A DNA stretch of 39,278 bases from an uncultured Clostridia bacterium (GTDB lineage Bacteria > Bacillota > Clostridia > Oscillospirales > Acutalibacteraceae), in the NCBI GenBank assembly GCA_947305635.1, contig CAMZEG010000002.1, positions 1 through 39,278 of the forward strand. The letters are read 5' to 3'. Below are positions 8,700-35,150 of this stretch, piece after piece; the first letter of the stretch is position 1; the number at the start of each line of letters is the position of its first letter. The notes beneath the pieces are model-generated. The model worked only from the letters and a program-made list of their open reading frames with translations, searched no databases and was not told the origin of the DNA. The translations under genes were made by a program, and so were the position numbers.

Positions 8700-9650
8700 T
8701 TACCGGATCAGGTCGTGCGCCTTGATATAATCGACCACCTCGTCGACGGTGGTGAACGCGAGCGCGACGGTCGTGTCCGCGGCGCCGTAGTAGATCGCGA
8801 TCCGGCCCGTTTCGCTGTCGGTCAGCGCGGCGCACGGGAAGACCACGTTCGGCACGTCGCCGACGGTCTCGTACAGCTCGTGCGGCGCCAGAAGGAAGCT
8901 GTCCGCGCGGTGCAGCACCTTCCAAGGCTCGTCCTTATCCAAAAGGGCGGCGCCCATGCTGTAGGTGAAGCCGTTGCAGCTGGTCAGCACGCCGTGGTAG
9001 AACAGCAGCCAGCCCTCATCCGTTTCAATCGGCGTCGGGCCCGCGCCGACCTTGGTCATCTCCCAGTTCTGGACGGGTTCCATCACGAACCGGTAGTTGC
9101 CCCAGTAGGTCAGATCACGGCTGCGCTGCAGGAAGATGTCGCCGTAGGGGGTGTGTCCCCGGTCGCACGGACGGATGAGCAGCACATATTCGCCGCCGAT
9201 CTTTTTCGGGAACAGTACGCCGTTGCGCGCGACGGGGTAGGTCGCGTCCTCCAGCTGGGTCCAGTCCTTGAAATCCGTTGTCACGGCGACGCCGATCGTC
9301 GTCCCGTGGTCGGTGAGGTTCACCCAGGTCAGATAGTACTTGCCGTCGATCTCGCACAGCCGCGGGTCGTAGCCGTAAAAGATCACCTTGTCGTCAAGGT
9401 CCCAGTGGATGGCGTCCTTGCTGTAGCCGGTGACGAGGGTGTGGTAGCGGGTTCTCGTATCCACGCGGAACACGCCCGCAAAGCCGTCGCCGTACGGGAC
9501 GACCGCGGAGTTGAAGATGCTGTTCGCAAAGAACAGGTTGTCCCTTGTGATGATCGGGTTTTCGGTGTAGCGCCAGACGGGGTACGGGTAGCCTGCGGGT
9601 TTCTCCTGCCAGGGCAGGTTCTTGATTGCCGGACCTAAGATTTTTGCCAT
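8700..9650 (-). CDS. Glycoside hydrolase/phosphorylase family 130
   Basis: NPIITRDNLFFANSIFNSAVVPYGDGFAGVFRVDT, YDPRLCEIDGKYYLTWVN, KVGAGPTPIETDEGWLLFYHGV: five-bladed propeller GH130 signatures. Confidence 0.88.
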   Translation of the reverse strand: MAKILGPAIKNLPWQEKPAGYPYPVWRYTENPIITRDNLFFANSIFNSAVVPYGDGFAGVFRVDTRTRYHTLVTGYSKDAIHWDLDDKVIFYGYDPRLCEIDGKYYLTWVNLTDHGTTIGVAVTTDFKDWTQLEDATYPVARNGVLFPKKIGGEYVLLIRPCDRGHTPYGDIFLQRSRDLTYWGNYRFVMEPVQNWEMTKVGAGPTPIETDEGWLLFYHGVLTSCNGFTYSMGAALLDKDEPWKVLHRADSFLLAPHELYETVGDVPNVVFPCAALTDSETGRIAIYYGAADTTVALAFTTVDEVVDYIKAHDLIR

Positions 9651-18705: not shown

Positions 18706-18737
18706 AACGGCGTTGAACCAACCGGTTCAACGCCGTT
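18706..18737. terminator. Bidirectional terminator
   Basis: AACGGCGTTGAACC-AACC-GGTTCAACGCCGTT, 14-bp perfect stem between convergent genes. Confidence 0.9.
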
Positions 18738-18749
18738 GTTTGTATGCAA

Positions 18750-19298
18750 TTATCTGCGGTCGAGCGCGCAGCGGGCAGTCACCTTTCCGGCGAAATCCGC
18801 CTTCGCGCTTTGCACCTCCACCGTTTTTTCTTCCCCGGCGAAAAGCGTGAATCCGTTTTCCGAAAACGTGCAGCCGTCGCAAACGAGCGTCACGTCCGGC
18901 GCGAACACGGCCGCGCGGACCGACACGCAAACCGTCCCGGCGCGCAAAAACACTTCCGTTTCCAGCCGCCGTCCGCCGAAACGGCGGGCACGCAGCTTTT
19001 TGCTCCACCAGCAGGTGTTATAGCATTCGTTCCCCGCCTCATCGATGAGGAACAGCCGCAGAATCTCCTTCTTTTCGCGGATTTCGCGCCGATCGAAAAA
19101 GAGCAGCTGGGTTTCGCTTTGCGGCGGGACGCTCACGCGCTCGGCCGTTTCGCCGCGGCAAGCGCCGTCCGTCCCTTCAATCCGACAGCGCGCCGTCCCA
19201 AAGAAGGGGGCGTCCGTGTCGTTATGCAGCATGATCTTGAGCAGCCGGTCGTCCTCTTCGACGGACAGGCGCAGCGGGGCTTTGGGTGCGGGGTTCAT
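18750..19298 (-). CDS. Stand-alone Ig-like beta-sandwich protein resembling C-terminal domains of GH2 beta-mannosidases
   Basis: LRLSVEEDDRLLKIMLHNDTDAPFFGTARCRIEGTDG...VSVPPQSETQLLFFD...AAVFAPDVTLVCDGCTFSENGFTLFAGEEKTVEV; 10 bp after the GH63-like stop. Confidence 0.55.
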   Translation of the reverse strand: MNPAPKAPLRLSVEEDDRLLKIMLHNDTDAPFFGTARCRIEGTDGACRGETAERVSVPPQSETQLLFFDRREIREKKEILRLFLIDEAGNECYNTCWWSKKLRARRFGGRRLETEVFLRAGTVCVSVRAAVFAPDVTLVCDGCTFSENGFTLFAGEEKTVEVQSAKADFAGKVTARCALDRR

Positions 19299-19308
19299 CG
19301 TTGTCCTT

Positions 19309-20967
19309 TCAGGCGTCCTGCAGCATCAGCAGCGTGAAGCAGGCCGACCAGTTGAAATCGGTGATGGCGTGCATGCGGGTCCGGTAGTCCGGCACTTCCG
19401 GCTGCGGCCCCTTGCGGTTGAGACGCCACGGCGCGATTTTGTCCTCCGCGTCATAGAACTCGAAGACGTTGCCCGTCTCTTCGAACCAGCGGTTGACGCT
19501 TTGCAGCGTCCGCTCCTGCAACGCTTTCGCTTCGTCGTCATAGCCGTAGCGCCGCAGGCCGAGGATCGTGAAATAGTTGAAGTTGAGCCAGACGCAGCCG
19601 CGCCACATGTCAGCGCCGTAATCGGCGTGGTCGCGGGAGATCGACGGCACCGGCAGCGGCGTCGCAAAGGTGCCCTCGTCGTGCAGCAGCGCAACGAGCT
19701 TCGCCGCGCGCTCTTCGGTGCAGACCCCGGCGAACAGCGGCAAAAACGAGCAGCAGCTCAGAACGCCGGTCAGATCGCCGGAAAGCGTCCGGTCGCAGTA
19801 CGCGCCGCGGTCGTCGTCCCAAAGCAGGTCGTTGATCTTTTGCGCCATGTCGTCGCCGATCTGTTGGAAGCGCGCTGCCTCCGCTTCGTTGCCGAGGATG
19901 CGATAGATCTCCGCCAGGCAGCGGCAGTCGTGGACCATGAAGCACGAAGCGTCGATCGCGTCGAGCGTTTCGATGGTGTCGAAGCGGGGAGAATTGTCCA
20001 TTCCGCTCTCGTCACAGCGACAGCGCACGTTGTTGTAATCGGTCTTCCATTCGAGCAGCCCGTTGCCGTTCAGGTCGCGGTTTTTGAGGAACCACAGCTC
20101 GAACGCGGCGATCTTGTCGGCGCAGCGGGCAAGGAAATCTTTGTCGCCCGTCTTGCGGAAGACCTCCAGCGCCGCCCACGCGAGCACCTGCGGCTGCGTG
20201 ATGTCGGACAGATCGGTCGTGCTGCGCATGCGGTGAGGAATAAAGCCGTCCGCCGTCTGGCACTGCAGCACGGCGAGCAGAGCCTCCTTCGCCATTTCGC
20301 CGTCGTACTGCGCGAACGTGATCGCGTGGAACGCGGAGTCCCACAGCCACATGTCCTTATGCGGCAGCCGGTCGGGCGTTGTGAACCGGCCGGTGAAGCC
20401 GTCCTGCGGGCTGTAGACGTTGACCCGGTTGACGGAAAGGCATTTGTAATAGAGCGGTTCATACTGCGGCCTGCGGCAAAGCGGCATTGCTTCGTAATAG
20501 GCCAGCCGCTGCTGATAGATCGCGTCGATATCGAGCGCGAGCTTCTCCTGCGCCGCAGCGAGCGCAAGCGCGGCCGTTTTTTCGCGGCAGAACACGAAGC
20601 GGTCGCCCTGCGTCAAAAGCGCGTAGCAAAAGCCATTCGCCTGCAGCAGCTGGGCGCCGCGGCGCGTCTGGAGCGCGCAGCGCACCGCCGTCGAAATCCG
20701 CACGCGGCAGCGCGTTCTGCCGATCACGGTCGTCTTGTCCGCGAAGACGAGCAGCAGCTCGTCCGACTGCAGCGCGTCCGAAAGCACGACGCGCATTTTG
20801 TCGCTGTTGACATCGACCGCGAGGGTCACGGGGTTCGACGCGTCAAAGCGGATCTGCACCGGCTGATGCATCAGCATGCCGACGAAATCGTTCTTATGCA
20901 GATTCTCGCCGTCGATACCGCTGAAGCCGAACAGCGAGCCGTAATTGTATTTATGCGGGAGATTCAT
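19309..20967 (-). CDS. GH63/MGH1-like (alpha/alpha)6-barrel glycoside hydrolase
   Basis: HKDMWLWDSAFHAITFAQYDGEMAKEALLAVLQCQTADGFIPHRM...RGCVWLNFNYFTILGLRRYGY...YDAEDKIAP. Confidence 0.82.
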   Translation of the reverse strand: MNLPHKYNYGSLFGFSGIDGENLHKNDFVGMLMHQPVQIRFDASNPVTLAVDVNSDKMRVVLSDALQSDELLLVFADKTTVIGRTRCRVRISTAVRCALQTRRGAQLLQANGFCYALLTQGDRFVFCREKTAALALAAAQEKLALDIDAIYQQRLAYYEAMPLCRRPQYEPLYYKCLSVNRVNVYSPQDGFTGRFTTPDRLPHKDMWLWDSAFHAITFAQYDGEMAKEALLAVLQCQTADGFIPHRMRSTTDLSDITQPQVLAWAALEVFRKTGDKDFLARCADKIAAFELWFLKNRDLNGNGLLEWKTDYNNVRCRCDESGMDNSPRFDTIETLDAIDASCFMVHDCRCLAEIYRILGNEAEAARFQQIGDDMAQKINDLLWDDDRGAYCDRTLSGDLTGVLSCCSFLPLFAGVCTEERAAKLVALLHDEGTFATPLPVPSISRDHADYGADMWRGCVWLNFNYFTILGLRRYGYDDEAKALQERTLQSVNRWFEETGNVFEFYDAEDKIAPWRLNRKGPQPEVPDYRTRMHAITDFNWSACFTLLMLQDA

Positions 20968-22472
20968 GCCAAATCACCTGCCGTTTCCGCCGTTTCCGCG
21001 GCGGCTCTCTTTTCTCTCATCTCGTTGAGTTCGACCATGATGCCGTCTCTGCGTTTGCCGGTGAAGCGGTCAAGCGAATACATGACGGCGGGCAGGAAGT
21101 TGCCGATCGCGCCGCAAAGCGCAACCACAAAGTAAATGCCCTTCAGCGTGGAGTTTGACTGCACGACTTTGATCGTGTTGCCCGCGGCGTCCTTCTTGCC
21201 GCTCTGATAGCCGATGGCAAGGAGAGAGAGGTTCTTGACGTTGACGCGGATCAGCGTGTTCAGCCGGCCGACGATGCTCTGCACCGCGACGAGCATACCG
21301 TCGGAACGGATCGCTTCGCCGAGGTACTTTTCGCTGTACCACTCCATGTAGTCCGTCGAGTCCGCGACGATAATCTTGCGCGCGGCATCCATACCGGAGT
21401 TCGGCATGCCGGAAAGACCGATCAGCACGCCGACAAGATAGCGCCATTTGCGCACGCGGTTCAGATCGAACTTTGAGCCGAGCAGGGCGATCGCGGAATA
21501 AAACGCGGCGGAATACAGGTGGCTGCCGACGAGCATCGACCGCGCGGAGACATGCGCGCCGATGATCGGGACGAGGAACAGGCCGACGTAGGAAAGCGAA
21601 CCGCTGATCATGTCGATGATCGCCTTCATGCCGTAGTTGTCAAAGGTCTCGCGATAAAGGTCGGGCAGCAGGTCGTAGGTGACCTTGCGGATCGTTTCGA
21701 ACATGGATGCGGCCATCGCGATCATGAACGGCTTGTTGTGCAAAATCGCGGAGATCTTCTTGCGGTTCCAGGTGACCTTGGTCTCGCCCTCCTTGGGCGT
21801 GACGTTGACTTTTTCGTTCAGCGTGTAATACGGCGCGTGCATGACGGACACGCCGAGCAGACAGAAGAACAGCGCGACGAAGAAGTGGGCCCATTTCTGC
21901 TGCGTGATGTCGGAAAAGCGTTCCACCACGATCGGCAAAAGCCAGCCGGGCAGCATGGAGCCCAGCGTTGCCGCAAGGGAGGACAGGGTATAGAAATTCT
22001 TTCTGTCCTTCGGGTTCGTCGTCATTCGAAGCGAGATGGTCGTCATGGCCATATCGAAGAAGGCGTCGACCGATTCAAAGAGAATCGTGAAGATGAAGGC
22101 CCAGATCAGGTTGATCAGCGGGCTGCCCGACGGGACGACGAACAGCAGCAGGCTCGTCAGCGCGAACGGGATCGGCGCGATGCGCAGAATCGTTTTCGCG
22201 GTGCTTTGCTTGCCGGGCGGCGTCGGCCGGTCAAGGATCGGCCCTGCGATCGGCGGGATGAGGAAGGAGAAGATCGCCGACACGTTTTCCAGCAGGTTCA
22301 GCCGTCCCGCGTCGATCATCTGAAAGTCGCGGTTGAACTTGCTGGAATAGGTATAGACGCAGTCCTGACCCATCGTGTTGCCGAAGATGCCGCCGGAATA
22401 TCCGAACTGTTCCTTCACCGTGAAGGAGGGGTTGTTCTTGATCGCGAGGATGGTGTCTTTGATTTTAGACAT
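20964..22472 (-). CDS. GPH/MFS-type sugar transporter
   Basis: FGYSGGIFGNTMGQDCVYTYSSKFNRDFQMI...NLIWAFIFTILFESVDAFFDMAMTTISLRMTTNPKDRKNFY...; multiple hydrophobic helices; 4-nt overlap with 19309..20967. Confidence 0.8.
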   Translation of the reverse strand: MSKIKDTILAIKNNPSFTVKEQFGYSGGIFGNTMGQDCVYTYSSKFNRDFQMIDAGRLNLLENVSAIFSFLIPPIAGPILDRPTPPGKQSTAKTILRIAPIPFALTSLLLFVVPSGSPLINLIWAFIFTILFESVDAFFDMAMTTISLRMTTNPKDRKNFYTLSSLAATLGSMLPGWLLPIVVERFSDITQQKWAHFFVALFFCLLGVSVMHAPYYTLNEKVNVTPKEGETKVTWNRKKISAILHNKPFMIAMAASMFETIRKVTYDLLPDLYRETFDNYGMKAIIDMISGSLSYVGLFLVPIIGAHVSARSMLVGSHLYSAAFYSAIALLGSKFDLNRVRKWRYLVGVLIGLSGMPNSGMDAARKIIVADSTDYMEWYSEKYLGEAIRSDGMLVAVQSIVGRLNTLIRVNVKNLSLLAIGYQSGKKDAAGNTIKVVQSNSTLKGIYFVVALCGAIGNFLPAVMYSLDRFTGKRRDGIMVELNEMREKRAAAETAETAGDLA

Positions 22473-23709
22473 CGGAAGGAACCTCCTTTGTTATGGGTGT
22501 GCTTGCCATGCCGTAGGCGTTTTCCGCCCGAACGGCAACGGTTTTGACGCCGGGCGTTTTGGGCAGCGGAATCGTATAGAAAGGCTTGTCGTGGGTGAAC
22601 CAGTATTCGTGCAGGGTATAGGCGCTTTGGAGCACCTTATCGTTCGCATCGCGTCCTTCGGCGCGGTACAAAAACACGGGGAAGCTGTCGCCGCTTTGGG
22701 CTGCGGGGCAGGTGATTTGGTACGCGTCGTCGGTTTCTTCCATCTGCAGCACCGCGTCCGCGGGGAAGACGGGCGGCGCGGAGCGCGCTTCCTGCCGCGC
22801 GGGGGTATAGGGGAAGGCCTCCTTCTTCGCCGGAAAGCGCAGCACATAGCTGCAAAGACAGTCGCCGGAGAAGAAGTCGTAGCCGCGCAGCACGACGGTG
22901 TGCTCTTGGTCGGCTTCGACGATCCAACCCTGCGACATCGTTTCGCACTGCGGCGGGTGAACGGTGCGCTCAGCGCCGACCGTGAACTCCGCGTAGCTCA
23001 GCGCGCCGGTGCCGATCGCGGTGAAGTCTTTCTGGAACACCGAGCGCGGGTCGTTGAGCGGGTAATGGGAGTGGCCGGAGAAATGCACGACGTTCGGATG
23101 CTTCGCAAGGATCTTTGTAAAGTGCGTCAGGCCCCAGCCGTCGAAGCGGGTGCTGCCGTAGACCGTGTCGCGCACATGCTCGTGCTGCATCACAAAGACC
23201 GGCGCGTCCGGTGTGTCCTTCGCCGCTTTTTTCAGCTCCCGTTTCAGCCAGCGCTTTTGCTTTCTGTCGTAGTAGCAGTCCTTTTCGCTGGTGGAGACCG
23301 AAAGAAAGTGCAGCCCGCCGATCGTCAGGTGGATGTCGGTCGAAAGGCCGGTAATATCTCGGAAGTGCCGCAGGCCGGTCTTCTCTCCGCCCTTGCCGAA
23401 CTCCCAGTTGTCGTGGTAGCGCGGGACGCAGGCGATGACGGCCGTTTCCTTTCGCAGGGCGCTTTGCACGGTGTCCCAGAACGCTTCGAACTGCGCCGGG
23501 GTGCCCTTGTTTGTCAGATCGCCGGCGAACAAAAACGCGTCGAGCCGGTCGTAACTTTCGTCCGCGGCGGCAATGGCGTACGCCGTTTCCATCAGCGTTT
23601 TCAGCCGCCGGGTCTGTTCGTCGCCGGCCTCTTTGATATGCAGATCGGAGCACACGCAGAAGCGCAAAACCGGCCGAAACGCCGCCGGCGCGGGGTCGGG
23701 TCCAACCAT
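22465..23709 (-). CDS. Cytosolic metallophosphoesterase with C-terminal Ig/FN3-like region
   Basis: LRFCVCSDLHI, FLFAGDLTNKG, CVPRYHDNWEFG, FVMQHEHV, VHFSGHSHYPLND; 8-nt overlap with transporter gene. Confidence 0.82.
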   Translation of the reverse strand: MVGPDPAPAAFRPVLRFCVCSDLHIKEAGDEQTRRLKTLMETAYAIAAADESYDRLDAFLFAGDLTNKGTPAQFEAFWDTVQSALRKETAVIACVPRYHDNWEFGKGGEKTGLRHFRDITGLSTDIHLTIGGLHFLSVSTSEKDCYYDRKQKRWLKRELKKAAKDTPDAPVFVMQHEHVRDTVYGSTRFDGWGLTHFTKILAKHPNVVHFSGHSHYPLNDPRSVFQKDFTAIGTGALSYAEFTVGAERTVHPPQCETMSQGWIVEADQEHTVVLRGYDFFSGDCLCSYVLRFPAKKEAFPYTPARQEARSAPPVFPADAVLQMEETDDAYQITCPAAQSGDSFPVFLYRAEGRDANDKVLQSAYTLHEYWFTHDKPFYTIPLPKTPGVKTVAVRAENAYGMASTPITKEVPSDV

Positions 23710-23744
23710 CCGTATCGCCTCCCGGAAAGGAATATCTATTCTTT

Positions 23745-23830
23745 ATTATAATAGGAAAGCTCCGAAAGTCAATGAAGAATCTATAAAATAATCAAAATTC
23801 GGTTGCAATTTTGCAATACTGCGGTATAAT
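23745..23830. promoter_or_regulatory. Back-to-back divergent promoters of the two glycan/phosphoesterase operons
   Basis: Minus: TTGACT (23767-23772)-16-TATAAT (23745-23750). Plus: TTGCAA (23803-23808)-16-TATAAT (23825-23830); TTGCAATTTTGCAA motif at 23803-23816. Confidence 0.75.
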
Positions 23831-23869
23831 GAAAAGCGAGAAAACACACAGAAGAAAGGAAGGATTCCC

Positions 23870-24979
23870 ATGTCAAAAACGAAAAAGATCATCCTTTGCT
23901 GTGTCGCGGCGCTGGTCGTTATCGCGGCCGTCGCGGCGGCCGTCGTCTACAGCAAGCTTCCGCACGCTTTGAACTACCCGATCGACAAAATCGAACCCTG
24001 CGAGCACCAGGCCGTCAGCGTGGTGTCGAAGGACACGGACACCGTCACACTGCAGAAAAACGACGGCGGCGCGTTCCGGATTCTGATGTTCACGGACCAG
24101 CATCTCAACGGCGACAACAAAACCGGCTATAAGACCGTGGAGCGCATGATCGACGCCATTCAGCGCGAAAAGCCCGATTTGGTACTGGTCGGCGGCGACA
24201 ACATCACCAGCGGCATGAACCGTAAGCGCAGCGCCCAGTTCGCGGAGATCTTCGAACAGCTCGGCGTCTACTGGGGCGGCGTCCTCGGCAACCACGAGGG
24301 CGACAACCCGTATTCCATCACCCGCACGGAGATGGTGGATATCTTCTCGTCCCACGCGCACTGCGTGATGCTGCCCGGGCCTGCGGACATCGACGGCGAC
24401 TGCAACTACGTGATCCGCCTGCTCGACAAGGACGGCAAGCTTGTCAAGACGATCTTCTGTCTCGATACGTTCGACGAGATCAGCGACGAGACCGCCGCTT
24501 CGCTGACGCTCTATGACAAGAGAACGCCCTACGACGGCGCGCACGAAAACCAGGTGCAGTGGTACCGCGAAAAGGCCGAAGCCCTCAAAGAGACCGACGG
24601 CGACTACGATTCCATTTTGCTGATGCACATCCCCCTGCACGCCTATGACGAAGCGCTTGAAACCGAAAAAATGCTTTACGGCGATCAGCGCGAGGACATC
24701 TGCTCCACCGTCTATGACAACGGCCTGTTCACCGCGATTCAGGACGTCAGCGTCACGCAGATCGTCTTCTGCGGCCACGACCACCTCAACAACTTCGGCG
24801 TCCAGTACAAAAACGTGCTGCTCAGCTATATCGAGCCGTCGGGCTACGGCGCCTACGGGATGGACCGCCGTGACGCGCCGCCGTCAGACTGGCTGCAGGG
24901 CTACACCAAACTGGACCTCCTGTCGGACGGCACCGTCGCGCAGGATCAGATCCGCTACGCAGAGGTGTACGGCGACTGA
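23870..24979 (+). CDS. Membrane-anchored metallophosphoesterase (Dcr2/purple acid phosphatase-like)
   Basis: N-terminal TM; FRILMFTDQHLNGD, LVLVGGDNITSG, GVLGNHEGD, LLMHIPLHAYDEAL, VFCGHDHLNNFG. Confidence 0.87.
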   Translation: MSKTKKIILCCVAALVVIAAVAAAVVYSKLPHALNYPIDKIEPCEHQAVSVVSKDTDTVTLQKNDGGAFRILMFTDQHLNGDNKTGYKTVERMIDAIQREKPDLVLVGGDNITSGMNRKRSAQFAEIFEQLGVYWGGVLGNHEGDNPYSITRTEMVDIFSSHAHCVMLPGPADIDGDCNYVIRLLDKDGKLVKTIFCLDTFDEISDETAASLTLYDKRTPYDGAHENQVQWYREKAEALKETDGDYDSILLMHIPLHAYDEALETEKMLYGDQREDICSTVYDNGLFTAIQDVSVTQIVFCGHDHLNNFGVQYKNVLLSYIEPSGYGAYGMDRRDAPPSDWLQGYTKLDLLSDGTVAQDQIRYAEVYGD

Positions 24980-26682
24980 TGGACAGATTTGAACGCTTCG
25001 ACCCGCGCGAAAACGCGCGGCTGGTGCACCACTACATCACCCACATGGTGGATGAAAGCGAGGACAACCTCCCCTACTGGCTGCTGCTGCCGAACAAAAA
25101 GCCCGCCGAAGCGGCGCATTGCCGCGTTGACGACGCGGAGCTGGTCGGCTCGTGGTACGAGGGCCTTTGCTGCGCGATGGAGCTGCTCGGCACACAGGAC
25201 GGCGACGACGTCAAGCAGTCGCTGCGGCGCCATCTGATGAAGTCCTGGGGCGAGCACGGGCTGCGCTTCTGCGAGCCCTACCCGTGGACCCACACGGTTC
25301 ACGCCTCGTTCCATGAGATGGGCTACATCCTCCCCGCGCTGAACAAAATTGTCGAGGAATACCCCGACGATAAAGAGGCCGAACGGCGCGCAAGCGAGCT
25401 GATCAGCGGCATGCGCAAGCTCGTGATCGAGCGCAAGGTGCGCACGTTCTGGTCGGGCGACTTCCCCGAGCCGGATCCCCTCTATGAGTTCCCGAACGAC
25501 GTCTATCTCAAGGACGGCGGCTTCGACCTTACGCGGCACACCGGCCGCGGCGAGCAGCCGATCCGCAACGCGCTGATGCTGCACGCGCTGGCGCGGCGGT
25601 ACGACCTGACGGGGGACAAAACGGCGTTCGACCTCGCGGTCGGGATGGCGAACTTCGTCCTCGGCCCATCGCGGTACTTCAACTATAAAATGGAGTTCTT
25701 CGGCCACGTTCATTCCGCGGTCTGGTTCGCCTGCGGTCTTGTCTATCTCGGCCGGCTGATCCAAAACGACACCTATATCGATAAGGGCAAGGCGATCTAC
25801 GACTACGTCCGCTCGCTGTCGTCGTCCTTCGGCTGGGTGCCGGAGTACGCACAGTGGCACCCGATGGAAGAGGAGCACTGCGAAACGTGCTGCGTGCGCG
25901 ACATGATTCTTTGCGCGCGGGAGCTGACCAAGTGCGGCTACGACTGCTACTGGGACGACTTCAACCGCTTCGCCCGCAACCAGCTGGTTGAAAACCAGAT
26001 CCGCTACACGGGCTACGTCACGGTCGACAACACAAAACCCGACGCGAACGGCATCACCTACCGAGATATCGACAAGCGGATGGTCGGCGGCTTTACGGGC
26101 GGGAGCGAACCGAACAGCATCTCGCTGCAGCGGTTCCGCTCGATCGCGGGCTGCTGCGTCGGCACCGCGCCGACCGCGCTCAAAGAGGTCTGGGACAGCG
26201 CGATCACCGAAGAAAACGGTGCTCTCATCGTGAACGTGCCGCTGGATAAAGAGACCGACGCGCTGTCTCTTTCGTCGGCGCTGCCGAACGAGGGCAGACT
26301 CACCCTGACGGCGAAGCGCCCCTGCCGCGCCGGCTTCCGGCTCTACGGCTGGATGGGCGACGATCTCACCTTTACCGTCAACGGCAAGCCTGCCGACGTG
26401 ACCCGCGACGGCAAAACCGCGATCGCAAACCTGAATCCGGGCGACATGCTGGTGCTGACCTTCCCGCTGGAAACGCGCGAAGAAAAAGAGACCGTCGCCG
26501 GGCGGACGTTCACCGTGCTCTGGCGCGGCTGCGACGTCGTGGACCTTTTGCCGCGCGGCGAACATGTCCGGCTCTATCAGCGCGACCGGGACATCCCGAA
26601 ATATTATCCCACGCCGGACGACGTGGTCTACACGGGCGCGGTCAACTACGGCCCGACCCAGCAAAAAGGAGGCGCGAAATGA
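24979..26682 (+). CDS. GH127-like (beta-L-arabinofuranosidase superfamily) protein
   Basis: Barrel motifs; EEEHCETCCVRDM and AGCCVGTAP resemble the GH127 Glu/Cys3-Zn site; 1-nt stop/start overlap TGATG with the upstream gene. Confidence 0.72.
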   Translation: MDRFERFDPRENARLVHHYITHMVDESEDNLPYWLLLPNKKPAEAAHCRVDDAELVGSWYEGLCCAMELLGTQDGDDVKQSLRRHLMKSWGEHGLRFCEPYPWTHTVHASFHEMGYILPALNKIVEEYPDDKEAERRASELISGMRKLVIERKVRTFWSGDFPEPDPLYEFPNDVYLKDGGFDLTRHTGRGEQPIRNALMLHALARRYDLTGDKTAFDLAVGMANFVLGPSRYFNYKMEFFGHVHSAVWFACGLVYLGRLIQNDTYIDKGKAIYDYVRSLSSSFGWVPEYAQWHPMEEEHCETCCVRDMILCARELTKCGYDCYWDDFNRFARNQLVENQIRYTGYVTVDNTKPDANGITYRDIDKRMVGGFTGGSEPNSISLQRFRSIAGCCVGTAPTALKEVWDSAITEENGALIVNVPLDKETDALSLSSALPNEGRLTLTAKRPCRAGFRLYGWMGDDLTFTVNGKPADVTRDGKTAIANLNPGDMLVLTFPLETREEKETVAGRTFTVLWRGCDVVDLLPRGEHVRLYQRDRDIPKYYPTPDDVVYTGAVNYGPTQQKGGAK

Positions 26683-27422
26683 ACGTTCTGAGCTTCAACA
26701 TCCTTTGCCGCGACTGGCAGCCGCGCGTCCCGCCGGTGACCGCGACAATCCGGGACACGGCGCCCGACCTCTTCGGGCTGCAGGAGGCGCATGCCGGCTG
26801 GATGGACGCGATCTGCGCCGCCTTCCCGGACTACGCTTACGTCGGCATCGGCAGAGACGACGGCAAGCGCGAGGGCGAGTTCGCCCCCGTCTTCTATAAA
26901 AAAGACCGGTTCGCGCTGCTGGACAGCGGCCATTTCTGGCTCAGCGAAACACCCGACCGCCCCGGCAAGGGCTGGGACGCGGCGTGCATCCGCATCTGCT
27001 CGTGGGCGCTGCTGGAAGACAAGACGACCGGCGAACGCTTCGCCGCGATGGATACCCATCTCGACCACAGAGGCCCCGTCGCCGCGGAACAGGGCATGGC
27101 GCTGATCCTGGACCGCGCGGCACAGTTCGGCGATCTGCCGGTGCTGCTGATGGGTGACTTCAACTCGTTCCCCGATTCCGCGCCGTACCGCCGCGCGATG
27201 GCCGCCGGTTTTTCGGACGCCCGGGACATCGCGCCCGTCCGCGACGAAATGTTCACGTTCCATAACTACGACGATCCGGACGACAACGCATTCCGGAAGA
27301 TCATCGACTATATTTTCATCAAAAACTGCAAAAGCGTGGATTCGTTCCGCGTTTTGACCGACCGGCAGGACGGACAGCTCCCGTCGGACCACTACCCCGT
27401 TTTCGCGGCGGTGCAACTATAA
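26679..27422 (+). CDS. Endonuclease/exonuclease/phosphatase-superfamily hydrolase
   Basis: MNVLSFNILC, DLFGLQEAH, AAMDTHLDHRGPVA, VLLMGDFNSFPDS, DYIFIKN, PSDHYPVFAAV. Confidence 0.92.
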   Translation: MNVLSFNILCRDWQPRVPPVTATIRDTAPDLFGLQEAHAGWMDAICAAFPDYAYVGIGRDDGKREGEFAPVFYKKDRFALLDSGHFWLSETPDRPGKGWDAACIRICSWALLEDKTTGERFAAMDTHLDHRGPVAAEQGMALILDRAAQFGDLPVLLMGDFNSFPDSAPYRRAMAAGFSDARDIAPVRDEMFTFHNYDDPDDNAFRKIIDYIFIKNCKSVDSFRVLTDRQDGQLPSDHYPVFAAVQL

Positions 27423-27433
27423 AGGAGGGCGCT

Positions 27434-28225
27434 ATGAGATACGGTGTCAGTTTCAGTCTGGATCTCCCGCAGCAGGTGCGGATGGCAAAGGAAGCGGGCT
27501 TCGATTACGCGGAATGCGGCTTCGGTTCGCTGTCGCGCGCGGACGACAAGGCGTATGCGGCGTACCGCGACGCGCTCAGGGAAAACGACATCCCCTGCGA
27601 AGCGGCGAACTGCTTTATCCCGGGCGATCTGCCGATCATCGGCACGGACTATGCCCGCAAGGAGATGCGCGACTATATCGAGAACGGGATGCGCCGCGGC
27701 GCGCCGCTCGGTCTGCGGACGGTCGCGTTCGGCTCAGGCGGCGCGCGTTCTCTGCCGAAGGGCGTCACATTCGCCGAAGGCTTCCGCCAGCTCGGCGCGT
27801 TTCTGCGCGACGTGGTGTCTCCGATTGCCGCGGCGTACGGCGTGACGGTCGCGATCGAGCCGCTGCGCAAAGGGGAATGCAACGTGATCCACACGCTCGA
27901 CGAGGGCGTGATGCTCGCGGCGCTCGCCGACCGCGAGAACATCTCCTGCCTCGCTGACGTTTATCACATGTGGGGCGCGGGCGACAGCTTCGACGATCTG
28001 CGCAGGCTGCGCGGCTGCATTGCGCACGGGCATATCTCCAACCCTGAAACGCCGGACAAGGCGGCCAAACGCACCTTCCCGCTGGACAAAAAGGAGTTCG
28101 ATTACAAGGGCTTCGTCAAGGCGCTGCGCGATGCGGGCTGCAAGCGCTGCTCGATCGAAGCGAAGGTCTACGACTTTCCGACGGAGATCAAAAAGTCGGG
28201 AGCGATTTTGAAAAATCTGCTGTAA
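27434..28225 (+). CDS. Sugar phosphate isomerase/epimerase (TIM barrel)
   Basis: MRYGVSFSLDLPQQVRMAKEAGFDYAECG...VAIEPLRKGECNVIHTLDEG...ISCLADVYHMWGAGDSFDDLRRL...IAHGHISNPE. Confidence 0.87.
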   Translation: MRYGVSFSLDLPQQVRMAKEAGFDYAECGFGSLSRADDKAYAAYRDALRENDIPCEAANCFIPGDLPIIGTDYARKEMRDYIENGMRRGAPLGLRTVAFGSGGARSLPKGVTFAEGFRQLGAFLRDVVSPIAAAYGVTVAIEPLRKGECNVIHTLDEGVMLAALADRENISCLADVYHMWGAGDSFDDLRRLRGCIAHGHISNPETPDKAAKRTFPLDKKEFDYKGFVKALRDAGCKRCSIEAKVYDFPTEIKKSGAILKNLL

Positions 28226-28300: not shown

Positions 28301-28317
28301 CGTGTTCAGTGTGCAGA

Positions 28318-28355
28318 AAGAGGAACCGAAGCGATTGCTTCGGTTCCTCTTTTTC
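28318..28355. terminator. Bidirectional terminator between convergent operons
   Basis: AAGAGGAACCGAAGC-GATT-GCTTCGGTTCCTCTTTTT. Confidence 0.9.
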
Positions 28356-28362
28356 TCTTCTT

Positions 28363-30135
28363 TTACACTTCGACTGAGCCTTCCGTGTACTCCTTATGCT
28401 CGCGGTGGAAGAACTTTTCTTCCGGCTTGAGATCGAGACCGATCGTGCCGCCGGGGTTCATCAGGTAATCCGGGTCGAAGTAGTTCTTCAGCGTGCGGAT
28501 CACGCCGTATTCTTTTTCGCCGAGATACCCTTCCAGCCACGGGGCGAACATTTTGCCGATGCCGTGGTGGTGGCTGATTGCCGCGCCGCTCTTCTGGATC
28601 GCGTCGAGAATCGTCGCGTGGTAGCGGCGGAATTCCTCCTCGTCCTGCATCTTCGTCATAAAGATGAAGTAGAGGTTCGCGCCCTGCGGGTAGCAGTGGG
28701 ACATGTGCGTCGTCACGATCGTGTTCGGCAGCGCGTGGCACACCTCGCGCACCTCGCGGTGGACGCGCCCCATGTTGGACCAGTTGACCGTGCATTCGAG
28801 CGTGTCGATCATGTAGCCGAAGTCCATCAGCGTATCGCGCAGATACGGGTCGTTGAAGCGGCCCTTCTCCCAGCCCTTGCAGACAAGACCCGTCATCGGG
28901 ATCGCGCCGTATTTGCGGGCGATGCGGGAGATATTCTTTGCGACGTTCTTTGAAAAGCCCTTTTCGCCGTCGGTGAAGCCGAGGAAGAGACAGCGCTCAA
29001 AGTCCTTGTAGCCGATCTTTTCCAAAATCGGGCCGAGCGGCGTTTCGTCCACGTTGTAAAGATGCAGCATCAGCGAGGTCTCCTCCGGGTCGGACAGGCG
29101 GAAGACCGAGGAATAGCCGCATTCACACTGCATCATTTCGCGCGCGGCGTCCATCGCGATTTCCCAGTTCTTGAACATGTAGGAGAAGCGCTTGCGGTTT
29201 TCGGGCATCCAGCGGAAAACGCGCAGCGTCACCTCGGTCAAAACGCCGAAGGTGCCCTCGCTGCCCATCATGATCTGGTTGAGGTTCGGACCGGTCGCTT
29301 CGCGCGGGTAGTGGCTCGTTTCGATCTTGCCGATCGGCGTCGCGTACTTCTGCGACAGTACGATATCCGCGATCGTGCCGTAGTAGGTGCTGTTCTGGCC
29401 CGCGCCGCGCGTAACCGTCCAGCCGCCGACCGAGGAATACTCGAACGACTGCGGGAAGTGGCCGCAGGTGTAGGCGCGCTTCGCGCCGAAGAGAGTCTGC
29501 GCGTTCTGCAGCGTTTCTTCCAGCTTCGGGCCGGACATGCCCGCCTGCACGGTGATGGTCTGGTCGGTCTCGTTGAACGAAATCACCTTGTTGAAGTTGC
29601 GGCGCATATCGAGCGAGACGCCGCCCTTGATCGGTTCCACGCCGCGGGTGACGGAGGAGCCGCCGCCGTAAACATAGAGCGGGAGTTTATGCTCGGTCAC
29701 ATAGGCGACGATTTTCTCGATCTGCTCGCTCGTTTCGGGGAAGACGACGAGGTCGGGCAGAGAGTCGAACCGGCGGTGCCGCATCCGCAGCAGGTCGTAC
29801 ATCGTCTGCCCATAGGCGACGGCGAGCCGATCGTAGTCGCTTTGCGACACGTTCTCTTCCCCGACGATCGCGGCGATCGCGGCGACATGCGCGGGGTCGA
29901 TCTGCGGCGCGTGCTCCGGGCCGAGGGTCACCGGCTCCATGCCGATATCGTCGTTGTACTGCTTAAAGTCGTCGTCCGAGAGGTTGCAGCGGGTTTTCAC
30001 ATAATTATAGAGGCTCTCTTTGGGATACTTGAAGAAGTCCGGATCGCCCCAGCGGAAGATGGAGCGGAAGCTGTTTTCGGGCGCCCGTTCCAGCACCCAG
30101 TTCGGCTCAAAGCCGCGGTACGGTTTCGTGCTCAT
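28363..30135 (-). CDS. FAD-binding oxidase/transferase of the alkyldihydroxyacetonephosphate synthase (AGPS)-like family
   Basis: VVFPETSEQIEKIVAYV, YGGGSSVTRGVEP, SSVGGWTVTRGAGQNSTYYGTIADIV, IMMGSEGTFGVLTEVTLRV, SHHHGIGK near C-terminus. Confidence 0.87.
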   Translation of the reverse strand: MSTKPYRGFEPNWVLERAPENSFRSIFRWGDPDFFKYPKESLYNYVKTRCNLSDDDFKQYNDDIGMEPVTLGPEHAPQIDPAHVAAIAAIVGEENVSQSDYDRLAVAYGQTMYDLLRMRHRRFDSLPDLVVFPETSEQIEKIVAYVTEHKLPLYVYGGGSSVTRGVEPIKGGVSLDMRRNFNKVISFNETDQTITVQAGMSGPKLEETLQNAQTLFGAKRAYTCGHFPQSFEYSSVGGWTVTRGAGQNSTYYGTIADIVLSQKYATPIGKIETSHYPREATGPNLNQIMMGSEGTFGVLTEVTLRVFRWMPENRKRFSYMFKNWEIAMDAAREMMQCECGYSSVFRLSDPEETSLMLHLYNVDETPLGPILEKIGYKDFERCLFLGFTDGEKGFSKNVAKNISRIARKYGAIPMTGLVCKGWEKGRFNDPYLRDTLMDFGYMIDTLECTVNWSNMGRVHREVREVCHALPNTIVTTHMSHCYPQGANLYFIFMTKMQDEEEFRRYHATILDAIQKSGAAISHHHGIGKMFAPWLEGYLGEKEYGVIRTLKNYFDPDYLMNPGGTIGLDLKPEEKFFHREHKEYTEGSVEV

Positions 30136-31688
30136 TGCGTGTCCCTCCTGTTGATCTCTGCGATGGATTTATCGATCGGCCGCAGCCGCGCGGGCAGCCG
30201 GCTGTAGATCTTTTCGTAGCAGTCCATGTAGCGTTCGTGCTCTTCCTGCCGCGGGGCAAAGGTGTCCTTCGGCTGGACCATGTGCGCGATCGCGTCGTCG
30301 TAATCGGCGAAGACGCCCTTCGCGACAAAGGCGACCATCGCCGCGCCGATCGCGCTCGCCTCGTGGGTCTGGATCCGGCTGACCGGCAGCCCGAAAAGGT
30401 CGGCGGCAATCTGGCAGACAACGTCGCTGCGCGCGCCGCCGCCGCCCGCATACAGCACGCGGACTTTTTGCTTCGAGCGCTTTTCCATTGTGGAAAGCCC
30501 GTGGTACAGTTCCAGCAATATGCCCTCGATGATCGCGCGGTAGAGGTGGTAGCGCGTGTGGTAATCGGCAAAGCCGACAATCGCGCCGCGGGCGTTCGGG
30601 TTCGTGATCCCCGGCGTCCAGAACGGCTGCAGCAGCAGACCGCCGCTGCCCGGCTCAATGTCTTTGATCTGTTCGTCAAGATACTGCTCGGGAGAGATGC
30701 CGCATTTTTCGGCTTCGCGTTTGTCGGCGGCGCCGAATTCCCGGATGAACCACGAAAGCATCCAGAAGCCGCGGAACACCTCGAACTCGGGGTTGTACAA
30801 ATCGTTCGGCACGGCGGGATAGGCCGGCATGAACGGCTGCGGCTCAAAGTAGTCCTTCACCGCCATCTGCAGCGTGGCGGTCGTCCCGAACGAGACCGCG
30901 GCGCGGTCGGGATGCACGACGGAAAGGCCGAGCGTCTCGCAGCCCTTGTCGGAGCCGGCGGCGATCAGCGGGATCCCCGCGGGAATGCCGGTCTTTTCGC
31001 TCGCCTCTTTTGTGATCGGGCCGATCGTCTCGCCCGAGGGCACGAGGTCGCAAAGCTTTTCTTTCGGCACATCGCACACGCAGCGGGACAGCTCCTTTTC
31101 GCCCATCCAGCGGCGGTTCTTGTAATCGAACGGCACATGGCCGATCATATTGGCGACGGAATCGACCAGCTTACCCGTCAGCTTGTAATGGAGATAGGCT
31201 GGCAGCATGACGTATTTTGCGGTCTTGTCCCAGGTTTCCGGCTCGTTTTGCATCAGCCAGTTCGCCGCCGTGGCGCGGTAGAGGATTTTGACTGCCTCCC
31301 CCATCCCGACGAGGGAGAACAGCGCCGCTTTGAGCGGCGGGATCTGCCCCTTGTCGTCCGCGCACCGCTCGTCGAGCCAGAGGATGATGTCGCGCAGCGG
31401 GCGGTTCTCTTCGTCGAGACACAGCACCGTGTCGCGGATGCAGGTCAGCGAGACCGCGACGATGCGGTCGAGCTTATCTCTGTTGCGCGCGAGCAGCGTT
31501 TTCGACAGCGCGGCGATCGCGTCAAAGTAGAAGTCGGGCGTCTGCTCCGCCCAGCCGGGCTGTTTGGAAAAATAGGGCGTTTCGTAAACCTGCTGCGCCT
31601 TGTCCTCGAAGCCGCCGGTCTCGTTGACCAGCAGGCACCGCGCGCTCTGGGTGCCGATATCAAAGGTCAGCACAAGCGGATGTTCCAT
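30132..31688 (-). CDS. FGGY-family carbohydrate kinase
   Basis: LVLTFDIGTQSARCLLVNETG, GWAEQTPDFYF, AAGSDKGCETLGL, SFGTTATLQMAV, VRVLYAGGGGARSDVVCQIAADLFGLPV. Confidence 0.92.
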   Translation of the reverse strand: MEHPLVLTFDIGTQSARCLLVNETGGFEDKAQQVYETPYFSKQPGWAEQTPDFYFDAIAALSKTLLARNRDKLDRIVAVSLTCIRDTVLCLDEENRPLRDIILWLDERCADDKGQIPPLKAALFSLVGMGEAVKILYRATAANWLMQNEPETWDKTAKYVMLPAYLHYKLTGKLVDSVANMIGHVPFDYKNRRWMGEKELSRCVCDVPKEKLCDLVPSGETIGPITKEASEKTGIPAGIPLIAAGSDKGCETLGLSVVHPDRAAVSFGTTATLQMAVKDYFEPQPFMPAYPAVPNDLYNPEFEVFRGFWMLSWFIREFGAADKREAEKCGISPEQYLDEQIKDIEPGSGGLLLQPFWTPGITNPNARGAIVGFADYHTRYHLYRAIIEGILLELYHGLSTMEKRSKQKVRVLYAGGGGARSDVVCQIAADLFGLPVSRIQTHEASAIGAAMVAFVAKGVFADYDDAIAHMVQPKDTFAPRQEEHERYMDCYEKIYSRLPARLRPIDKSIAEINRRDTQ

Positions 31689-32067
31689 CGTTTTTTCTCC
31701 TTTCGCTTTCCGTTTCGTTTAACACATTGCTCGTCACGATCACGTCCGCGCCGAGACCGAGCGCATTTTCCAATACGATATCGCCGCGCCCGAGCCGCGT
31801 TCTGACCGTCGTGCGGCTGATCTCCCGCATCACGTCGAAGATTTTGTCTTTCGGGATCTCCTTCGATATGCGCACGGGCAGCACCGGCACGTCGGGAAAG
31901 GCGGTGCGCACCGTGGTGCAGACCGTGCGGCGCGGGTCGCGCACCTCGCTTTCGGCAAAGGCGGCGCCGCGCTTGCAGCCGTTGCCGGTGATCTGCAGGT
32001 TGCCGTTTTCCTCGGCGATCCGCATCCGGCAGCCGCGCGGGCAGACGATACAAACCAGTTCCTTCAT
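31660..32067 (-). CDS. DUF1667 protein (Cys-rich small partner of GlpA/B-like oxidoreductases)
   Basis: MKELVCIVCPRGCRMRIAEENGNLQITGNGCKRGAAFAESEVRDPRRTVCTTV. Confidence 0.88.
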   Translation of the reverse strand: MKELVCIVCPRGCRMRIAEENGNLQITGNGCKRGAAFAESEVRDPRRTVCTTVRTAFPDVPVLPVRISKEIPKDKIFDVMREISRTTVRTRLGRGDIVLENALGLGADVIVTSNVLNETESERRKNDGTSACADL

Positions 32068-33338
32068 CTTTGCGCCTCCTGTTCCGGTCGTCTGAGGGAA
32101 AAGCGGACGACGCTTGTTTCACTGAGATTCCACTCCCCCGGCCGCAGCGTCAGCTGCTCCATCTCCGGCGGGCGCAAAAACGCGTACCGTTTGGAAAAGA
32201 CCGTTTTGCCGTCCGCGGTGATCTCCAGCGTACAGCCGTTTTCCTCCTTGCGGGCGCGGAAATAAACGGTCAGCGCGTCCCCTGCCCTTTGCAGATCCAG
32301 CGTCTGCGGCACGACGTACAGCAGATCGTCCGACGGCTGCAGCTCGATCAGCCGCCGTTCCCGCGGGCGGTACAGCGCGGCGGCTTTTCCCGCCTGCGCC
32401 GCGTTTTCCGAAACGTAGTCGACGAGGTCGTTGACGTGCAGCGCGTTGCCGCAGCAGAAAACGCCGTCGACGTTCGTCATGCAGTCGCCGTCGCAGGCGG
32501 GGCCTTTGGTACGCGGATCGAGCCGGACGCCGAGCGACTGCGCGAGTTCGTTTTCCGGGATCAGCCCGACCGAAAGGATCAGCGCGTCGCAATCGACGCG
32601 GCGCTCCGTCCCGGGAATCGGGGTCATCGTTTCGTCCACTTCGGCGATCTCCACTCCTTCGAGCCGATCCGCGCCGAAGACGCGCGTCACGGTGTGGGAG
32701 AGATACAGCGGAATATCAAAATCGTATAGGCACTGGTGCAAATTGCGCGTCAGGCCGGAGGGCGTCGGCTTCGCTTCGTAAACGCCGAGCACTTCCGCCC
32801 CCTCCAGCGTCAGCCGCCGCGCCATGATCAGGCCGATGTCGCCCGAGCCGAGGATCACGCAGCGCTTTGCCGGCTGCAGGCCGAGCAGATTGGTAAAATG
32901 CTGCGCCGTGCCGGCCGTAAAGACGCCGGCGGGCCGGGTGCCGTGGATAAAGACCTGCTTCGCCGTCCGCTCGCGGCAGCCTGTCGCGAGGACGAGCGCC
33001 CTTGCGGTTTCAACCGCGACGCCGCCGCGGCTGACCGTATGGACCCGGAAGCCGTCGCCGGTGTTGTCGATCTTCGTCACGAAGGTCAGCGTTTTCACGT
33101 CGATCTCCCGCGCGCGCAGTTCATCCATATACCGTTCGGCGTATTCGGGGCCGCTGAGCTTTTCGCCGAAGCGCAGCAGGCCGAAGCCGTCGTGGATGCA
33201 TTGCTTGAGGATGCCGCCCAGCCGCGCTTCGCGCTCGAGCAGCAGAACGCGCGCGCCGCTGTCGTGGGCGCTGATCGCCGCCGCGAGCCCCGCCGGGCCG
33301 CCGCCGATGACGATCACGTCATAGAAGGATGCCGTCAT
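32064..33338 (-). CDS. NAD(P)/FAD-dependent oxidoreductase (GlpB-like position)
   Basis: DVIVIGGGPAGLAAAISAHDSGARVLLLEREARLGGILKQCIHDGFG; ALVLATGCRERTA; CVILGSGDIGLIMARRLTLEGAEVLGVYE. Confidence 0.9.
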   Translation of the reverse strand: MTASFYDVIVIGGGPAGLAAAISAHDSGARVLLLEREARLGGILKQCIHDGFGLLRFGEKLSGPEYAERYMDELRAREIDVKTLTFVTKIDNTGDGFRVHTVSRGGVAVETARALVLATGCRERTAKQVFIHGTRPAGVFTAGTAQHFTNLLGLQPAKRCVILGSGDIGLIMARRLTLEGAEVLGVYEAKPTPSGLTRNLHQCLYDFDIPLYLSHTVTRVFGADRLEGVEIAEVDETMTPIPGTERRVDCDALILSVGLIPENELAQSLGVRLDPRTKGPACDGDCMTNVDGVFCCGNALHVNDLVDYVSENAAQAGKAAALYRPRERRLIELQPSDDLLYVVPQTLDLQRAGDALTVYFRARKEENGCTLEITADGKTVFSKRYAFLRPPEMEQLTLRPGEWNLSETSVVRFSLRRPEQEAQR

Positions 33339-35065
33339 TGCGCACCGCCCCCTTCCCCGTCTTTCGTTCTGCCATAGGTGATCACGGACGCTGCCGATGA
33401 TTTGCGGACGTCCGACAGCTCCGTGCCGAGAAACTCCGCGATAATCTTTGTCACGAGCGGCGAACAGAAGCCGCCCTGACAGCGTCCCATGCCGGGCCGC
33501 ACGCGCTTTTTGATCCCATCAAGCGTCGGCACACAGATGGGCGATTGCAGCGCGTCGAGGATCTCGCCCTTGCTGATCTCTTCGCAGCGGCAGACAATTT
33601 CGCCGTAGTCGGGATTTTCGCGGATCAGCGCGTCGCGGGCGTCGTCGTCCAGTTCGCGCAATACGGGTACGCCCTTGCGGACGGGATTGAACGACGGGTT
33701 TTCTTCCACGGCCTGCGTCTTTTGCAGCAGCGCGACCGCCATCTGCGCCACGTCGATCGCGACGGCGGGCGCGGTCGTCAGCCCCGGCGACTGGATCCCG
33801 GCGCAATGGATCAGATTCTTCGTCCTGCGGCCCGGCTCGATGACGTAATCCTCTTCGAACGTCGGAGCGCGCACGCCGGTGAAATAAGTGATGATATCGC
33901 ACTCCGAGAGCGGCGGCAGGGTCGTCTTCTGCTTGTCGAAGACCGTGCGGATGCTCTCCGGCCGCGTTTCGGTGTTCTCTTTTTCGTATGTTTCCACCGC
34001 GTCGGGCCCGGCCAGAAGATTGCCGTGGGCCGTGCGCATGACGCCGCCGCCCTTGGAATGGGTCTTGCCGTGGACGCTCAGATCCTTGACCGAGGCGATC
34101 GACTGGAGATAGGCGCCGGTCTTTTTGTCGAGGATCGAGTTGGTGCCGCGGCGCGGGTGGATGGAATAAAAGCGGTCGTGCGCCATCTTTGCGACCGCTT
34201 CCGCGAACACGCCGGCGGCGTTGATCACAAGCTTCGGGCGCAGCGTCCCGCGGTTGGTTTTCACGGCGGTGATGCGGCCGTCTTCGACCGTCATATCCAG
34301 CACGGCGGTGTTCAGCGCGACTCTCGCGCCGTTCGTGACGGCGTTTTCCGCGAACGCGATCGTCAGCCCGTAGGGGCAGACGACGCCCGCGCTGGGGTTA
34401 TAGAGCGCGAACTTCGTTTCCGTTGTCAGCTGCGGTTCGCGCCGCAGCAGTTCTTTGCCCGAAAGCAGGACGGTGTCCTCGATCCCGTCGTGGTGTTTAC
34501 GCCAGAAGGCGTACAGCGCGATCAGCGGGAACAGCGCCCGTTTTTGAAACAGCACATACTGCCCGACGCGGGAGAACGGGACGTCCAGCTCGCGGCAGAC
34601 GTCTTCGTACATGCGGTTTGCCCGGCGGATATACTTGTGCTTGAGCGAGCCCTTGCCGAGGTCGATCCCCGGGTGGACTTCGCCGTCGTTGCGGCCGGAG
34701 GCCTGCAGCGCGAGATCGGCTTCCTTTTCGACCAGCAGCACGTCGAGCTTCCATTTCATCAGCTCCCGCGCGATCGAGGCGCCGGAAATCCCGCCGCCGA
34801 TCACGAGCACGTCGGGCGCGTCGCCGTCGAGCGACCGGTCCTCGTCCGGCGGGAGCCGCATCGGGGCGTCCTTTGCGTTCGGGCAGGCGATATCGTTCAG
34901 CACATGGTGCGTGCTGTTCTTTTTTGCCGCAAGCTGACAGGCGGCAACAACGTCCGCCCAGTCGTCCAGTTCGCCGCGCAGCACGACGCAGCCGTCTTCG
35001 GCCGACGCCGTGACGCGGCCGCCGTATAACTGCTGCAGTTTGCGGTTCAAAGTCGCCGTTTTCAT
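33335..35065 (-). CDS. GlpA-like FAD-dependent oxidoreductase with BFD-like [2Fe-2S] C-terminus and BON-like N-terminal extension
   Basis: Start at 35065 (MKTATLNRKLQ) with GGAGGT; BON-like GGRVTASAEDGCVVLRGELDDWADVVAACQLAAKKNSTHHVLNDI; DVLVIGGGISGASIARELMKWKLDVLLVEKEADLALQASGRN; IVCRCEEIS...GMGRCQGGFC. Confidence 0.87.
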   Translation of the reverse strand: MKTATLNRKLQQLYGGRVTASAEDGCVVLRGELDDWADVVAACQLAAKKNSTHHVLNDIACPNAKDAPMRLPPDEDRSLDGDAPDVLVIGGGISGASIARELMKWKLDVLLVEKEADLALQASGRNDGEVHPGIDLGKGSLKHKYIRRANRMYEDVCRELDVPFSRVGQYVLFQKRALFPLIALYAFWRKHHDGIEDTVLLSGKELLRREPQLTTETKFALYNPSAGVVCPYGLTIAFAENAVTNGARVALNTAVLDMTVEDGRITAVKTNRGTLRPKLVINAAGVFAEAVAKMAHDRFYSIHPRRGTNSILDKKTGAYLQSIASVKDLSVHGKTHSKGGGVMRTAHGNLLAGPDAVETYEKENTETRPESIRTVFDKQKTTLPPLSECDIITYFTGVRAPTFEEDYVIEPGRRTKNLIHCAGIQSPGLTTAPAVAIDVAQMAVALLQKTQAVEENPSFNPVRKGVPVLRELDDDARDALIRENPDYGEIVCRCEEISKGEILDALQSPICVPTLDGIKKRVRPGMGRCQGGFCSPLVTKIIAEFLGTELSDVRKSSAASVITYGRTKDGEGGGAQ

Positions 35066-35150
35066 GCCGCACCTCCGTTCCTTTGGGTTCGGTTCTATCA
35101 TACACCGCGCGGGGCGGTTTGTCAATCTGCGCCGGACTAAGAGTTGGTTA

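Follow-up and report, generated by a model that had tools for sequence, protein, structure and literature searches.

A conserved pair of divergent operons for glycan utilisation, with a GH127-fold enzyme and metallophosphoesterases, in an uncultured Clostridia bacterium

We analysed a stretch of 39,278 nucleotides (the window; contig CAMZEG010000002.1 of assembly GCA_947305635.1) from an uncultured Clostridia bacterium of the Acutalibacteraceae, and concentrated on a locus of eight open reading frames (ORFs), arranged as a pair of operons that run in opposite directions from a 160-bp spacer (23710-23869). The leftward operon, on the minus strand, encodes a putative metallophosphoesterase without a signal peptide (MPEa, 22465-23709), a putative GPH/MFS_2 cation symporter (20964-22472), a GH63-like hydrolase (19309-20967) and a stand-alone Ig-like protein (18750-19298), joined in this order by an 8-nt overlap, a 4-nt overlap and a 10-nt gap. 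The rightward operon, on the plus strand, encodes a membrane-anchored metallophosphoesterase (MPEb, 23870-24979), a divergent GH127-like enzyme without a signal peptide (24979-26682), an EEP-fold phosphatase/phosphodiesterase (26679-27422) and an AP_endonuc_2 TIM-barrel protein resembling sugar isomerases and epimerases (27434-28225), with a 1-nt overlap, a 4-nt overlap and an 11-nt gap between them. These ORF calls reproduced exactly the coordinates, strands, overlaps and divergent spacer given in an earlier sequence-only reading of the window, made without database searches. A promoter scan of the spacer revealed two back-to-back sigma-70-like promoters on opposite strands, TTGACT-16-TATAAT for the leftward operon (23745-23772, minus strand, 11 of 12 matches to the pattern) and TTGCAA-16-TATAAT for the rightward one (23803-23830, plus strand, 10 of 12). 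A terminator-like hairpin with a 14-bp stem (18706-18737, listed on both strands) follows the leftward operon at its 3' end and another with an 18-bp stem (28315-28354, plus strand) closes the rightward operon and divides it from a convergent AGPS operon; the limits of the locus thus agree with those of predicted transcription units.

We scanned GTDB genomes with an alignment of the GH127-like protein and obtained 80 loci: 74 in Clostridia (mostly from the rumen or other herbivore gut), five in Paenibacillus and one in Kiritimatiellota. The core, GH63-GPH-MPEa on one side and MPEb-GH127-TIM on the other, was syntenic in six of them (L014, L015, L020, L022, L024 and L043), and the layout is thus not a matter of chance; the elements of both promoters aligned in six of seven loci, the seventh being L024, taken with its upstream MPEa start. 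Many more of the 80 had partial sets, and the parts also recurred in other arrangements, namely MPEa-GPH-MPEa2-GH127 (L016, L017, L059), GH127-MPEb-GPH-MPEa (L039, L040), GH127-MPEb-GH63 with ABC permeases (L070, L072) and GH63-GH127-EEP (L087). An MPE or EEP gene was located within 6 kb in 37 of the 80 GH127-like loci, in comparison to 4 of 40 loci anchored on GH125 (p = 4e-5) and 0 of 20 anchored on AGPS (p = 2.5e-5), p-values that assume independent loci although related genomes are not independent. GH63 occurred within the same distance in 13/80 GH127-like and 0/40 GH125 loci. Since many contigs are short, the neighbour counts are lower bounds; of the 38 loci flanked on both sides by 5 kb or more, ten carry GH63 and every one of these ten also has an MPE, and on the GH127-like tree the well-flanked loci required at least six changes for MPE presence and at least three for GH63. 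The neighbourhood proposed in the sequence-only reading recurs in relatives and is enriched against both control anchors, with GH63, GPH, MPEa, MPEb, the GH127-like gene and the TIM-barrel gene as its conserved core, whereas the Ig-like and EEP genes do not belong to that core. Searching the literature for this combination of genes gave no match. We conclude that the locus is a genuine one for glycan utilisation, conserved and made of two operons, with a GH127-fold enzyme.

The Pfam hits (Ig_mannosidase, MGH1-like/GH63, MFS_2, two metallophosphoesterases, Exo_endo_phos and AP_endonuc_2) agreed with the earlier domain calls for seven of the proteins; the eighth, called GH127, scored only 13.2 bits against a PF07944 cut-off of 24.9, though its structure model backs the call. 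The AlphaFold2 model, built from 49 homologues, had a pLDDT of 89.9, and its best 21 PDB folds were all GH127/GH146 (E 7e-16 to 5e-13; next match 1e-7), with the (alpha/alpha)6 barrel and beta-sandwich of that group. The residues E289, E302-x-C304 and C392-C393 were invariant in the 49 homologues and corresponded to E322, E338, C340, C417 and C418 of the zinc-cysteine site in HypBA1 (PMC10728902), an equivalence that comes from the motif and a profile alignment of the ETC stretch, not from superposition of the sites. Because of the fold and of these residues, the protein is probably a cysteine glycosidase. It shares the predicted fold and the E...ExC...CC site with the beta-L-arabinofuranosidases HypBA1 and BtGH146, but it is only 11-16% identical to them, shorter, and encoded beside GH63 and MPE genes. 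Across the 80 loci, the copies share 57-91% identity with that of the window. Compared with PADLOC defence models, the GH127-like protein and the phosphoesterases gave weak scores only. As a separate observation, a gene for an FAD-dependent oxidoreductase (L028 12674-13963, cluster c13) lies beside the GH127-like gene in 11/80 loci and beside some GH125 genes.

The GH63-like hydrolase contains the SGMDN motif and scored well above the cut-offs for PF03200 (GH63; 81 vs 22.4 bits) and PF22422 (MGH1-like; 195 vs 27); no signal peptide was seen, and it is predicted to be cytoplasmic. It matches YgjK, yet it remains far below the equivalogs among GH63 enzymes, both the YgjK-type alpha-glucosidase (128/625 bits) and the glucosylglycerate hydrolase, of the mannosylglycerate/glucosylglycerate hydrolase group (71/550). 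The symporter passed PF13347 (95 vs 27 bits) and stayed below TIGR00792 (107 vs 231). The TIM-barrel gene is a neighbour of the GH127-like gene in 10/80 loci. The Ig-like protein (PF17753 Ig_mannosidase, residues 115-176), for which no signal peptide was seen, is accessory: among the relatives, only the two nearest, L014 and L015, have it.

The two metallophosphoesterases differ in their motifs and in their predicted location. MPEb (PF00149, 53 bits) has the complete calcineurin-like motif set (DQH, GD, GNHE, H, GHDH), and its catalytic domain is predicted to lie outside the cell. MPEa (PF00149, 37 bits), predicted to be cytoplasmic, keeps DxH, GD and GHxH, and in the window its GNHD reads RYHD (residues 97-100); other MPEa clades carry other residues at the asparagine position and keep the remaining ligand motifs. 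Over the family alignment this position varies, including Tyr, Cys, Ala, Gly and Ser. The MPEa model (pLDDT 94.2) includes a high-confidence fold in the C-terminal region past the Pfam domain, and its nearest solved folds were those of Rv0805, the glycerophosphodiesterase GpdQ and purple acid phosphatases; from Rv0805 and GpdQ it differs by its low identity (12-19%), by the asparagine-to-tyrosine change and by the additional C-terminal region. As judged with a hydrophobicity window, a hydrophobic anchor was found in 16/16 GPH-linked MPEb copies, and the first GPH-adjacent MPEa copies had no signal peptide in 17/17 cases if the upstream start of L024 is discounted, as opposed to a hydrophobic N-terminus in 16/19 unlinked MPEa paralogues (Fisher p = 1e-7 with that start discounted; p = 9e-5 with all GPH-linked copies counted as called). 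L016, L017 and L059 lack MPEb and have in its stead another MPEa copy, whose N-terminus is signal-like. We read these predicted topologies as a matched pair of phosphoesterases outside and inside the cell, around the importer. A second GPH-MPEa pair, 88% and 73% identical, occurs on another contig of the same genome (L124, contig C194) and is either a paralogous copy or a sign of strain mixture.

The EEP protein, predicted to be cytoplasmic, is about 38% identical over 213 aligned residues (E 5e-41) to PDB entry 4c1r, deposited as 'mannosyl-6-phosphatase', and both contain the GRDDGKxxGE and FWLSETPDxPxKGWDA stretches; the homology extends over the domain, and 4c1r is the nearest EEP structure that bears a name. 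This resemblance is a lead, not proof, for the substrate, because relatives of the EEP protein are common, their contexts mixed, and the gene lies outside the conserved core. We also considered EEP context as a substrate clue and discarded it, as 20 further EEP loci were mixed and uninformative. The 4c1r match and the NCBIfam scores, far below the equivalog cut-offs for exonuclease III (19/182 bits) and SpdA (17/400), do not bear out a concern raised in the earlier reading, namely that the phosphoesterases could be housekeeping nucleases or cyclic-nucleotide phosphodiesterases; for MPEa this holds only in part, since its fold group includes a cyclic-nucleotide enzyme. The phosphoesterases could instead be regulatory, acting on cyclic nucleotides or dinucleotides, with only the GH/GPH part being catabolic. 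The best fold match of MPEa, Rv0805, and the weak SpdA match would fit such a role; the distance of the SpdA score from its cut-off, the membrane anchor of MPEb with its domain predicted outside, and the resemblance of the EEP protein to a sugar phosphatase make it very improbable.

Hints on the substrate come from genes near relatives of the transporter and of the GH127-like enzyme. The locus L131 (1745-12762), GH130-GH63-GDPD-GPH-GH125-MPEa-YhhN-GH4-MPEb, amounts to an expanded transporter/phosphoesterase core. GH130, MPEb and GPH occur with GH63 in L237 and with a GH63-like fragment only in L242; in L225, L228 and L234, GH130 is near GPH relatives and no MPE lies beside the transporter. Among GH127-like loci, L085 contains GH125, EEP, GH63 and GH92, L082 contains GH125 and EEP, and L068 contains GH92. 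These neighbours are hinting at mannose-containing, possibly glycerophospho-linked glycans. GH125 was also tried as a general marker of the system and rejected, given its 4/40 loci with MPE or EEP within 6 kb. In the window itself, a GH130-family protein (PF04041, 218 bits) is encoded at 8700-9650, outside the operons of the locus and at a distance of about 9 kb from it.

From the gene content, synteny, promoters, terminators, folds, active-site residues and predicted topology, all of which were computed, we infer the catalytic steps and also that the substrate is phosphorylated and contains mannose. Outside the cell, the membrane-anchored MPEb would attack an oligosaccharide at a phosphate ester or diester, and the GPH symporter would bring in the product along with a cation. 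The cytoplasmic steps would follow: MPEa and the EEP enzyme may strip the remaining phosphate groups, the GH63-like enzyme may take off alpha-linked hexose units, the GH127-like zinc-cysteine enzyme could cut a second, unusual linkage, and the TIM-barrel protein could isomerise one of the released sugars. Import and dismantling of a phosphorylated or phosphodiester-linked oligosaccharide had been proposed in the sequence-only reading, which we find supported in part; the genomic data are consistent with it and the topology pattern lends it support, while phosphate on the imported glycan is plausible but unproven. A phosphorylated oligosaccharide would be the most likely substrate class, with phosphate-bearing mannose glycans of the fungal mannan or N-glycan type in the lead. 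That the locus is one conserved Gram-positive utilisation unit for such an oligosaccharide, with these mannose glycans as leading candidate, we regard as only a little short of an even call.

The substrate could instead be a glycerophosphodiester-linked glycan or glycolipid head group, e.g. a glycosyl-glycerophosphate derived from lipids or from polymers of the teichoic type; in that case both MPEs would be glycerophosphodiesterases, and the GH63-like and GH127-like enzymes would free the sugar. The fold of MPEa, close to GpdQ, agrees with this, and relatives of the GPH/MPE core are accompanied by GDPD glycerophosphodiesterase in L131 and L269 and by YhhN proteins in L131, L223, L229 and L240, but neither GDPD nor YhhN is encoded in the two operons of the window. 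In L244 a GPH gene closes a GlpA-FADox-DUF1667-FGGY-AGPS operon of the type that converges on our locus; this operon is, however, independent in 37/300 genomes, GPH adjoins only 1 of the 20 AGPS loci examined, and a terminator separates the two in the window. We consider this reading quite unlikely.

Several observations weigh against a phosphorylated substrate, and some of them would suit a plain locus for an unphosphorylated plant oligosaccharide, in which the role of the phosphoesterases is to scavenge phosphate or to remove it from sugar phosphates that the cell itself makes. Both phosphoesterase families are abundant paralogues in this lineage: MPEa-like genes occur in 79/300 genomes, with at least six copies in this one and in many contexts, and EEP-like genes in 77/280 genomes, with at least five copies here. 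The loss of the canonical GNHD asparagine, one metal-ligand residue, makes the activity of MPEa uncertain. Some GH127-like genes lie away from phosphoesterases, e.g. in Paenibacillus beside ABC importers, or next to many other gene types, and GH127/GH146 relatives act on plant beta-L-arabinofuranosides (PMC10728902, PMC10850190). Beyond these points, the EEP gene is absent at the equivalent position in L015, L020, L022, L024 and L043; GH125 usually stands alone, generally not near MPEs, and was not found in this genome, which is 76% complete; an independent-pairs test on the GH127-like tree gave the expected direction with too few events for significance; and the N-terminal calls come from the hydrophobicity window rather than a signal-peptide predictor. 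Against the plain locus stand the link of the MPEs to GPH and GH127-like genes, which is specific and extends to shared operons, and the matched inside/outside pair, and we judge it unlikely.

Fungi, protozoa, bacteria and plants all bring phosphorylated glycans into the guts of herbivores, and to our knowledge the glycan-utilisation loci that handle phosphate are mainly those of Bacteroides. If a phosphorylated oligosaccharide is indeed the substrate, Clostridia would gain an equivalent of these loci. According to PMC10154615, phosphatases work with GH92, GH38, GH76 and GH125 enzymes in yeast-mannan breakdown by Bacteroides, and in B. thetaiotaomicron (Cuskin et al. 2015, as cited there) phosphatases and glycosidases act on phosphate-bearing alpha-mannan. 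Set against that system, our locus is similar in its EEP protein, through the match to 4c1r, but its operons have no SusC/D and would rely on a GPH symporter for import, and they use GH63-like and GH127-like enzymes with two metallophosphoesterases beside the EEP protein. No GH76, GH92, GH38 or GH125 was present among the locus proteins; of these four, GH125 was also sought genome-wide. Tentatively, and with more doubt than belief, we propose an undescribed Gram-positive pathway for phosphodiester or phosphomonoester glycans, in which GPH stands between phosphoesterases on the two membrane faces and the GH127 fold group gains a new family of zinc-cysteine glycosidases. The locus also points to one highly conserved enzyme family, the GH127-like proteins, whose substrate is directly assayable.

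The convergent operon (GlpA-FADox-DUF1667-FGGY kinase-AGPS, 28363-35125) was considered as part of the locus and rejected on the grounds of its independent occurrence and the terminator in between. Its last protein has alkyl-DHAP synthase 2uuu as best PDB match (E 1e-70), and in the family genomes the operon often has a TetR-like gene as neighbour; these features suggest a bacterial ether-lipid metabolism.

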